DNA of 56,529 nt from positions 1 through 56,529 of the forward strand of contig JAGVLJ010000047.1 in the NCBI GenBank assembly GCA_020049855.1. Reading direction: 5' to 3'. The number at the start of each line of letters is the position of its first letter. Position 1 is the stretch's first letter. The notes beneath the pieces are model-generated. The model had not been told where the DNA came from, did no database searches, and saw nothing but the letters and a program-made list of their open reading frames with translations. Made by a program: the position numbers and the translations under genes. This DNA comes from Bacteroidia bacterium (GTDB taxonomy: Bacteria > Bacteroidota > Bacteroidia > UKL13-3). This document shows, in pieces, positions 15,341 through 19,404 of the stretch.

Positions 15341-15437
15341 TGCTTCGCATACTACGAGTACTATTGTTAATACTGACGTTTATGAAAACTTTATCCCGGT
15401 GCTGTTTGATGTAAGAAAAAAACATTTTGAAAAAATA

Positions 15438-15469
15438 TTTGGAAATATAAATCCTGTGTTTTAGCTTTG
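15438..15469 (+). promoter_or_regulatory. Promoter of the GH16-like gene
   Basis: TTTG (15438-15441), 20-base spacer, TAGCTTTG (15462-15469): one of the best matches to the phylum consensus in this window. It lies 15 bases before the first ATG (15485) of the interrupted GH16-like gene, so the locus still appears able to be transcribed. Confidence 0.6.
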
Positions 15470-15493
15470 GTTTGTAATTAAACCATGTTGTTT

Positions 15494-16708
15494 ATGAAAA
15501 TTACCAAATGAGTTTTACCTGTTGTTCTATTCTTAACAAATTTTGGCTTTGCTCAAACTCCCGCCACCGACCCGCATTGGGTTCTTAATCAAAATTTGTC
15601 TGACGAGTTTAGTTATACGGGTTCTCCTTCTTCCATCATTAGCCAAATGAGTAATAAATGGCATTTTCTTGCTTTTGAAAACCCTTCTGTAAACGCACTC
15701 ACCTGCTCAACTCTAGTTGCCAATGGGTATGATTGCCCCCTTGCAACCAGAACCCTAGGATATATTAAAGCAGATGGCAGCGACATTCAGGTGCAAAACG
15801 GAATATGTACCCTTTCAGCCCAATATGCCCCCGGTTATTACCTATGGCCTGCCAACCAGTCAAGCTGGGTAACTCCATTTTATGTACACTATGACTTTAC
15901 CAGATGCCAGTTAGTTTCAAATGCATTAATGAATTACGGGTTTTATGAACTTAAATTTCGATTACCCTATTATTCCGGGCATCCTGAAAAAATTGACGGA
16001 ATTGGTGCTAATATGTGGTTTTTCCCGGTAACGCGAAGCTACCCCGTGCCACCTAATCCATATATTGAAATGGATGTGTTTGAGCAGGTTCCTTTCTGGC
16101 AATATAAGTTTGGGCCTACCATGCATTACGGAGGTACTATTGGCAATATTATTCAAAACATCCAATATCCAAATATTGGGTGGGAGGCCCGTTATGCTGA
16201 ATGGGATGCGCCATTTAATTATAACGTAGATTTTTCGGATGGTCAATTTCACACCTTAGGTTTTGAATGGCAGAAAGAATATGTAGCAATTTATGTGGAC
16301 GGAAAGTTGGTTAGAAGTATGAATTTCTTTCAACACCTAATGGGTCCAATGAATTTGTTTCTCGATTTAAATGTTAGTCCTTATTTTGCCAACCTGAACC
16401 CCGGAGTAACCACCAATACTGTTTTCCCGTATAATTATGAAATTGACTATTTCATGTATTACGATTTTAACACCACTAATCCAACTAACCTGAATGTGTG
16501 CACAGCCGATTATGCCAATACAGGCAGTAGCAATAATTTGGGTTACACCTACCGAGACAATATTACACTTGGTGGTACTGGTTGTAGCTCGGCTAAAGTG
16601 CAAAGCGGAAGTGATCTGGTTTTAAGAGCTAAATCAAACATTACCTTAGATGAAGGTTTTGAATGTGATGAATACACCACCATGTATTTACAAGTAAACA
16701 ATCGTTAA
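15494..16708 (+). pseudogene. GH16-like glycoside hydrolase gene with an in-frame TGA at codon 6
   Basis: The frame from ATG 15494 (or ATG 15485, also in frame) encodes a signal peptide, MKITK, then TGA (15509-15511), then VLPVVLFLTNFGFAQ, and continues uninterrupted for about 400 codons. Removing the stop gives a perfect Sec signal, so a single substitution or read error is likely. The body is a concanavalin-like GH16 domain with the catalytic signature EMDVFE (16067-16084), both glutamates kept. The C-terminus (about 16500-16708) resembles the Bacteroidota coathanger-stack module (SGSDLVLRAKSNITLDEGF). Only a TTG at 15596 could restart, and that product would lack export. Likely polysaccharide (beta-glucan-type) hydrolase or binding protein. 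Same locus as the two following genes. Confidence 0.75.
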
Positions 16709-16719
16709 AAAGGATCAGC

Positions 16720-17283
16720 ATGAAAACAATTAAACTTATTTTATTTTTCGCTTTGATAAGCTCGATGAGCCTTACCTGCAAAAAAGAAGAAGAGCATAAA
16801 CTAGTGGATTTATCGTATAGTAATTTAGGCGGTGTATATCCTAATGATTGGGGCGCTTGGAGTCTAACTTATCAACTTATTGACAGCATTGATCAAAACG
16901 GGAAACCTTATTTAAATATGAATTGGCCTACTTTCTCAGGTGGAGGGGCTGATTTTGCTTTTAAACTGCTGAATAAAGAAAGAACCTTGTATCAAAAAAG
17001 AACCGATTATATTTCCGATCAGGATTCAAAACTTTATACAACTATTGATACAGTGGTAGTAGACAGAATATCCGGGACAATAATTATGAAGGTTTATGAG
17101 CATGTTACCCCAACTTCCGTTCCGGTTCAATTAGGGACATTTATTGGTAAATTCAATGAAAAAACCAACCAAATGGAAGGAGCCATTCAGTACACTGCTT
17201 CATGGTACTGCCCATATTGCCCCATTGGCAACAGGTATAGGTTTGCAACCGTAACTGCTGGCGCATTTGGCTTAAACTGGTAA
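16720..17283 (+). CDS. Hypothetical lipoprotein of the GH16/S74 locus
   Basis: Not recognised. 187 residues with a signal peptide whose end (SMSLTC, Cys20) looks like a relaxed lipobox, followed by a charged KKEEEHK linker typical of surface lipoproteins in this phylum. The mature part is strand-rich and has a CPYCP motif near the C-terminus (SWYCPYCPIG), a close Cys pair that might bind metal or form a disulphide. It starts 11 bases after the GH16-like gene and 32 bases before the S74 gene, so the three are probably one transcript. Confidence 0.65.
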   Translation: MKTIKLILFFALISSMSLTCKKEEEHKLVDLSYSNLGGVYPNDWGAWSLTYQLIDSIDQNGKPYLNMNWPTFSGGGADFAFKLLNKERTLYQKRTDYISDQDSKLYTTIDTVVVDRISGTIIMKVYEHVTPTSVPVQLGTFIGKFNEKTNQMEGAIQYTASWYCPYCPIGNRYRFATVTAGAFGLNW

Positions 17284-17315
17284 AACAATCAATACAACAT
17301 TTAATATTTAAATTT

Positions 17316-18431
17316 ATGAAAATCAAACTTGTCATTTGTGCCCTGTGCACAATCCCTTTTTTAAAAAGCTACGGACAAATTAAAGTAGTACCTGGTGGCA
17401 ATGTGGTGATGAGCCGCCCACTTGATCCATCTACCTTTGTTATAATTGGTGAAACGGCCAGTAAGTATCCGCTTTATACTCTCCCAAATGTTCCAATTCC
17501 AAGTAAGTTAAGTATTAGATCATTCAATCAGGCTTCTCTAATAATTGACCATAAAGACAATCGATATGCTTTTAACAATCACGGTTCATGGCATGTAATT
17601 AGCAACTCCAATAGCAACATGTGGTATGGTGTACATTGGGGAGTGAGTTTAAATGCAAGTAAATTCAATTTTATGGTAACATCACAGGGAGTTTGTGCTG
17701 GAGTTAATTTTCTTAGTATCTCCGACTCGATGTACAAAAAGGATGTAGCCACTATTGTTGATCCAATGACCAAAATAATGTCTTTACGTGGAGTAACGTA
17801 TAAATTCAAAGCCAATACCTATTTGGGCGATAGCGCCACCCAACAAGAAATAGATGCCATAGACAGCCTGCCCGGGCACTATGGCTTTATTGCACAAGAA
17901 GTAGAGCAGGTTATACCCGAACTGGTAATGAATATAAAGCGGCCGGAAGATGCCAAGGCATTAAATTATATTGAAATTATTCCCCTTTTGCTTGAAGGTA
18001 TTAAACAACAACAAACCCAAATAGAAAATTTACAGGCACAATTAACCCTTTGTTGCCCAAATCTTCTTGATTACTCAAACGGGGGCGGTAATGAATACAT
18101 GCAAAAAAAGACCGATAGCAGTTGGTTTAACAGCAACAATTTGCAGGGAAACAAACAGGGGGTTTCTTTAAATGCACAACTTTATCAAAATGTACCTAAC
18201 CCATTTAATTCAAGCACCAGTATTGAATTTGATATTCCGGTTACCTGCAATCAGGCTTTTATTTAAATTTACAATTATCAGGGTGAGCAACTGAGGGCGT
18301 ATAAAATTGATGCCCGCAATCATGGCAGTATACAGCTAAAAGCAGGAGACTTAAAAGCCGAGGTATACTTTTACTCCCTTTTGGTTGATGGCAAAGAAGC
18401 GGGCACTAAAAAAATGATCCTTACTAAATAA
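17316..18431 (+). pseudogene. S74 tail-fibre-type protein with T9SS tail, interrupted by in-frame TAA
   Basis: Frame from ATG 17316: signal peptide (KLVICALCTIPFLKSYGQ), a strand-rich middle, then a peptidase S74 intramolecular chaperone domain (SDSMYKKDV..., HYGFIAQEVEQVIPELV, LNYIEIIPLLLEGIKQQQ, which includes the trimeric coiled-coil end). After a linker comes a T9SS type A sorting domain (LYQNVPNPFNSSTSIEFDIP). A TAA at 18264-18266 stops translation, yet the same frame continues for 54 more codons to 18431 with the rest of the domain (IYNYQGEQLRAYKI to GTKKMILTK). A Tyr codon changed to TAA would explain it. The truncated 316-residue product would keep S74 but lose the T9SS export/anchoring signal. 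Confidence 0.78.
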
Positions 18432-18443
18432 AACAATGGCATC

Positions 18444-18509
18444 GTCATGCTGAACTTGTTTCAGCATCCCTCAGAAAGGAAACAGATGCTGAAACAAGTT
18501 CAGCATGAC
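18444..18509. repeat. 25-bp perfect inverted repeat (REP-like palindrome)
   Basis: Arms 18444-18468 and 18485-18509 are perfect reverse complements (core TGAACTTGTTTCAGCAT), separated by 16 bases. A partial third copy (14 of 15 bases) lies at 18540-18554. It sits 12 bases after the S74 reading frame and before the end of the convergent BtuF-like gene, where it could also stop transcription from both sides. This arm sequence resembles palindromic intergenic repeats that recur in genomes of this phylum (from memory, not searched). Confidence 0.85.
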
Positions 18510-18609
18510 ACTGAGACCGCGAATGAAGGTCGGGACAGGCAAGTTCAGCAGGACTGTATGGTGAGTGATGTTGGAATAACGAGAAAATCCCTTATTTAAC
18601 CCCAAAAAT

Positions 18610-19404
18610 TTACGGGTGCAATATCTCCGCTTTTAATTCGCTGAAATATGCAGCCGCTTTCAACAACCTGCTCCCATACCAGCTGAATATTTCTCCGTCT
18701 ACCAGGCGAATATGTGCACCCGGGCAAATCATTTTTAATTCTAAAATATGTTCGTTTTTGAATGGGTATGGCTCGGATGACAGTAAAATAATATCGGGAT
18801 CCAGCACTGTTATTTCCTGTGCACTTAATTCCGGATAGCGAACCTCTGTTAGTACATTGTACCAACCTATTTGTTGAATCATGTCGCTGATAAAAGTATC
18901 GGTTCCCGCTGCCATATAGGGTTGTCGCCAAATAAGGTAAAGTACTTTTACCGGGGACGAATTAACTGTTGTTGCAAAAATACTAAATGCTGTTTGAATA
19001 GATTTACACAACCGAGTTGCCTGCACCACTGTATCTGTAATTTCACCTATGCACATTATCATTTGTAATGCATCCTCCAGATTTTTAATATCACTCATCC
19101 ATACCGGAAATTCTTTTTGCAATTCTTCAATCTGACTTTGATCGTTTTCTTCTTTGTTCCCAATAAGAAGATCGGGTTTCAGTTCACGGATTTTATCCGG
19201 TTGCAGTTTTTTGGTCCCCCCTACCCTTGGTTTACTATCATGTTGTGCTTTGGGATGAATGCAAAAAAGGGTTTGTCCAACTACTTCATCGGTGAGGCCC
19301 AAATCATACAGTAATTCCGTTTGCGAAGGGACTAATGAAACAATACGTTTTGGTGTGTGTGGCAAATGCAGGGTATTCCCCATTTGATCTTTGTATTCTT
19401 GCAT
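18610..19404 (-). CDS. BtuF-like helical-backbone metal/cobalamin-binding protein
   Basis: 264 residues of the TroA/BtuF-like substrate-binding fold: RIVSLVPSQTELLYDLGL (first lobe), GGTKKLQPDKIRELKPDLLIG, IGWYNVLTEVRYPELSAQEITVLDPDIILLSSEPYPF, and GEIFSWYGSRLL. These patterns match bacterial cobalamin- or iron-complex-binding proteins. Unusually for a periplasmic protein, the N-terminus (MQEYKDQMGNTLHLPHTPKR) has no signal peptide, and no permease or ATPase gene adjoins it. So it may work in the cytoplasm or rely on another export route. ATG at 19404. Confidence 0.8.
   Translation of the reverse strand: MQEYKDQMGNTLHLPHTPKRIVSLVPSQTELLYDLGLTDEVVGQTLFCIHPKAQHDSKPRVGGTKKLQPDKIRELKPDLLIGNKEENDQSQIEELQKEFPVWMSDIKNLEDALQMIMCIGEITDTVVQATRLCKSIQTAFSIFATTVNSSPVKVLYLIWRQPYMAAGTDTFISDMIQQIGWYNVLTEVRYPELSAQEITVLDPDIILLSSEPYPFKNEHILELKMICPGAHIRLVDGEIFSWYGSRLLKAAAYFSELKAEILHP

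Follow-up and report, generated by a model that had tools for sequence, protein, structure and literature searches.

Organisation of the locus

The window, i.e. the whole analysed stretch of 56,529 nucleotides, is contig C32 of a 2.91-Mb draft genome (G000; 84 contigs, 99.4% complete). Its plus strand carries a cassette of three genes, encoding a GH16-like enzyme, a small lipoprotein and an S74 protein with a type IX secretion (T9SS) sorting domain, of which the first and the third are interrupted by in-frame stop codons. The features of the locus are as follows.

15341–18625, unstranded: variable insertion site between terC and a btuF-like gene, the stretch without counterpart in G047
15438–15469, plus strand: Bacteroidetes-type promoter-like site TTTG-N20-TAGCTTTG, 5′ of the GH16-like gene, from a pattern scan
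15494–16708, plus strand: GH16-like gene, broken at codon 6, with a C-terminal domain resembling a "3-coathanger stack"
15494–15553, plus strand: Sec signal peptide region (MKITK, stop, VLPVVLFLTNFGFA), cut before QTP, from homologue comparison
15509–15511, plus strand: in-frame TGA stop, codon 6 of the GH16-like gene
16067–16084, plus strand: putative GH16 catalytic motif EMDVFE (E195, D197 and E200 of P0001), invariant in homologues
16720–17283, plus strand: small lipoprotein gene, intact
17316–18431, plus strand: gene of the S74 (chaperone of endosialidase) protein with T9SS sorting domain, broken at codon 317
17721–17927, plus strand: Peptidase_S74 domain (PF13884)
18195–18419, plus strand: Por_Secre_tail sorting domain (PF18962, from Pfam), if the stop is read through
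18264–18266, plus strand: in-frame TAA stop, codon 317 of the S74 gene (Tyr in G046, G056 and G033)
18444–18509, unstranded: dispersed palindromic repeat, 3′ of the module

The promoter-like site (TTTG-N-TAnnTTTG) is well placed for the GH16-like gene. Its ranking among the best of the window in the first-pass annotation is a weak claim, as the window has 9 such sites where 5.7 are expected by chance, overall no clear excess. The palindromic repeat is of the TGCTGAACTTGTTTCAGCAT type, which occurs in many copies in the genus mate G047 and also adjoins an S74 fragment on contig C76 of the window genome. As judged from 104 sorting-domain matches, the genome presumably encodes the T9SS machinery. 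No defence system was matched by PADLOC, and no published description of a GH16–lipoprotein–S74 module was found in the literature.

An early stop in the GH16-like gene

The TGA is present in the assembled sequence as codon 6, in frame and inside the signal peptide, as the first-pass annotation had described. If it is read through, the frame continues as MKITK-x-VLPVVLFLTNFGFAQTPA into an unbroken body that includes EMDVFE; a further in-frame ATG is located upstream, at 15485. The QTP just after the predicted signal-peptide cut is conserved in close homologues, and the GH16 signal peptides of G046, G053, G056 and G032 are open across the stop position. Potential routes around the stop were considered and rejected. 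From the TGA to 15596 there is no in-frame ATG, GTG or TTG that could serve as an alternative start and save the signal peptide; an out-of-frame ATG at 15508, which overlaps the TGA, runs into a stop after 26 codons; and a rescuing frameshift would enter one of two frames that both close within 30 codons.

The enzyme is attributed to a putative secreted glycan hydrolase of GH16 fold, and the functions of the other proteins are likewise predicted. The attribution is based on the invariance of EMDVFE in homologues (the E-x-D-x-x-E residues E195, D197 and E200 in alignments A1 and A2), on a match to PF00722 of 21.7 bits at a gathering cut-off of 22, and on a structure model (mean pLDDT 65) whose matches in the PDB are laminarinases and carrageenases (best 4dfs, E 4.8e-16). 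The motif and the predicted beta-jelly-roll fold are shared with GH16 glycoside hydrolases such as laminarinase and kappa-carrageenase, whereas the protein differs from the solved members by an identity of only ~15–20%, a Pfam score just under the cut-off and an extra C-terminal coathanger-type domain, accompanied by a weak GCX_COOH match.

A stop inside the sorting domain of the S74 protein

The second stop was confirmed as codon 317 of the S74 gene, in frame, inside the sorting domain and followed by 54 in-frame sense codons. The protein matches Peptidase_S74 with 49.5 bits (cut-off 22). Only when the stop is read through is Por_Secre_tail matched as well (residues 294–368), with 22.5 bits against a Pfam cut-off of 27 and with alignable homologues; the protein as encoded is without a sorting domain match. 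In the S74 homologues of G046, G032 and others, the sorting domain is open past the stop position, with Tyr at or near the stop. The structure model of the S74 protein (mean pLDDT 38) was too poor for use.

Contig C76 of the same genome carries a partial copy of the S74 3′ end, a paralogue that is itself cut short (L089, C76:5046–5439). Comparison of the two copies gave a dN/dS of 0.17 before the stop and ~0.05 after it, with 12 synonymous and 3 non-synonymous changes over 49 codons past the stop. This implies that selection acted on the end of the gene during most of the divergence, and that the TAA is recent. The paralogue is frameshifted by a one-base insertion at the same codon as the TAA of the window; that one S74 codon was hit twice may be due to chance or to a mutable AT-rich spot.

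Frequency of in-frame stops in the genome

Selected-looking codons past the S74 stop are also what single-base errors of the assembly or consensus, at one or both stops, would leave. Against this stands the rarity of such stops: none of the 104 sorting-domain matches of the genome holds an internal stop, and a coding-potential scan of a 456-kb sample of this genome returned only two loci with in-frame stops, the S74 gene of the window and one gene on L083. With so few in-frame stops the base error rate must be low, and two errors in one cassette are unlikely; we therefore consider the error explanation improbable. It should be noted that the power of the scan is estimated at 39–77%, depending on threshold, and that it is blind to stops as near the start as the TGA. 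The latter case was picked up in a separate signal-peptide scan, in which the other inspected matches fit ordinary starts. The statement that no other gene of the window carries such a stop was upheld by the coding-potential scan, at the same power. Internal stops were also absent among the best 150 sorting-domain matches in four relatives. In summary, such stops are rare in this genome, yet not unique to the cassette. The gene on L083 encodes a secreted protein with a signal peptide and two in-frame TAAs in its body (L083:10582 and L083:10894).

Site and cassette in relatives

In the genus mate G047 the flanks of the site are conserved (79–87% DNA identity), and terC and the btuF-like gene are separated by ~370 bp, with the cassette absent. 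In a second genus mate, G046, the site is occupied by the gene of a very large secreted protein, and an intact cassette is located elsewhere. The terC/btuF-like site holds other genes in both, and the cassette, missing at the site in one genus mate and sited elsewhere in the other, is accessory. Homologues of the lipoprotein gene are part of the module in G046 (two copies), G053, G056 and G032. Beside the module, tandem lipoprotein gene arrays with a GH16 C-terminal fragment are seen in G040 (L058:1129–5000), and three lipoprotein paralogues in a row in G001 (L067:242–1780); these arrays resemble duplicated partner or immunity-like genes.

When the locus was compared with close relatives, as the first-pass annotation had advised, the homologous proteins were found to run through both stop positions. 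As intact homologues are open at both places, the stops are derived.

The S74 genes of the family were divided into 18 with a neighbouring GH16-like gene, or with a contig end compatible with one, and 13 without a GH16 neighbour. Eight of the former are not open from start to end, compared to one truncated gene among the latter (Fisher p 0.031; 0.047 without the window genome; 0.12 when the two repeat cases G006 and G010 are left out as well), which is no more than suggestive of increased breakage in the GH16-linked genes. Besides the TAA of the window genome, the lesions comprise TAG and TAA in G056, a frameshift each in G053 and G062, and a frameshift with loss of the sorting domain in G034, all in the protein bodies. 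G019 has a stop at a repeat before the signal peptide and a further stop within the sorting domain, and in G006 and G010 the start codon is out of frame at a tandem repeat. The GH16 gene is affected in G033, where the start is missing and methyltransferase-like genes lie upstream, and in G034, where it is frameshifted. Extending the search to the whole order brought in no genomes from outside the family.

Every relative has its stops at other positions. Lesions so unrelated and so scattered speak against recoding and for a surface module that is dispensable or conditional and has been lost repeatedly. The first-pass annotation had suggested, as one option, that the stops are read through, in which case full proteins would still be made, and the intact frames onward and the strong purifying selection past the TAA would be in line with that. 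Conversely, the codons turned into stops are unrelated from one relative to the next, frameshifts occur as often as stops, no Rfam match was obtained between 14500 and 19500, which includes both stops, and none of the other 104 sorting-domain matches of the genome depends on read-through. Read-through or recoding is accordingly regarded as very improbable.

A tandem repeat before the signal peptide

In G006, G010 and G019, a 10-bp repeat, (CAACCAGCTT)n, separates the S74 start codon from the signal peptide, with 5, 2 and 2 full units, respectively. The same repeat is found in the same place, with 4 units, before the gene of an unrelated secreted protein in G014. The repeat loci of this set are L068:736–789, L105:1494–1524, L061:4240–4265 and L106 around 1501, and the exact 23-mer CAACCAGCTTCAACCAGCTTCAA is present in 4 of the 64 genomes of the family. 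Three of the four repeat-bearing genes have their start out of frame; in G019 a TAA follows. As the unit is 10 bp long, every unit gained or lost shifts the frame. Such a layout is that of a phase-variation switch, and in the S74 genes of another genus the repeat looks like a candidate for one. In this respect the three S74 orthologues resemble those phase-variable surface proteins whose genes carry tandem repeats close to the start codon, whereas the window S74 gene is without such a repeat and the lesions of the window are substitutions.

These observations bear on the possibility that the stops are polymorphic, with the module open in some cells and closed in others, and the assembly representing one strain or a strain mosaic. 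The genome is available as a draft in 84 contigs, its close relatives as metagenome assemblies, and the out-of-frame starts in G006 and G010 are as expected of an on/off switch. However, neither window stop is associated with a tandem repeat, so that no reversible mechanism is visible, and the 456-kb scan of this genome detected no short-unit arrays of at least three copies. Polymorphic stops are thus considered unlikely, albeit with some support from the relatives. A broader proposal is that the module acts as a contingency surface system under on/off selection, e.g. by phage or grazers; switching would proceed through the 10-bp S74 repeat in one genus and elsewhere, the window included, through recurrent polymorphic nonsense and frameshift changes, and the duplicated lipoproteins would act in protection or as binding partners. 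This proposal is rather unlikely as it stands.

Probable recent decay of an accessory module

Based on the combined data, the two stops are probably the result of a recent decay of an accessory secreted module via two independent nonsense substitutions. Decay was among the alternatives of the first-pass annotation, and it is this one that the comparison supports: the lesions are derived and recent, and lesions recur independently in the same module of G019, G033, G034, G053, G056 and G062. Only recent decay fits, as the frames are otherwise clean and old decay would bring more lesions.

The module comprises a putative GH16-fold hydrolase, a lipoprotein and an S74 protein with predicted export by the type IX system, and is located at the variable terC/btuF-like site. 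The TGA at codon 6 would halt synthesis of the hydrolase almost immediately, and the TAA would strip 55 C-terminal residues with most of the sorting domain, which should keep the S74 protein from export. The lipoprotein gene has so far stayed intact. Loss of function and this order of events are what we infer. Across the family, the module has been repeatedly gained, lost and inactivated, so it is probably useful under some conditions only.

Two points do not sit easily with decay. That 2.9 kb should contain two nonsense changes and no other lesion, and that both should hit export signals, is a mild coincidence (a chance of ~0.009 from mutational target sizes, computed post hoc, for both stops to fall there), and the low dN/dS past the stop is also expected from an assembly error, a minority variant or read-through. 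Compared to recent nonsense pseudogenes of bacteria, the decay favoured here is alike in the single premature stops, the open and recently constrained frames, the intact homologues and the accessory locus; it differs in that two genes of one cassette are affected, both in export signals.

The suggestion that export was lost first, with the protein bodies kept, is not supported, as the stop in codon 6 of 404 leaves no GH16 product at all, rather than an unexported one, and most of the relatives' lesions (those of G056, G053, G034 and G062) are in protein bodies. For the same reasons, selection against surface display finds no support. Stops in export signals as in the window are repeated only in G019. 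The stops are thus most likely ordinary decay of accessory genes and not a new reading of stop codons, in a small secreted module that was gained, broken and possibly phase-switched repeatedly in one Bacteroidota family. Such a history of gain, breakage and possible switching suggests that the module likely faces changing selection at the cell surface.

As a separate observation, an unrelated T9SS sorting domain in G050 carries an in-frame TAA (L044:1663) almost where the stop falls in the S74 protein of the window.
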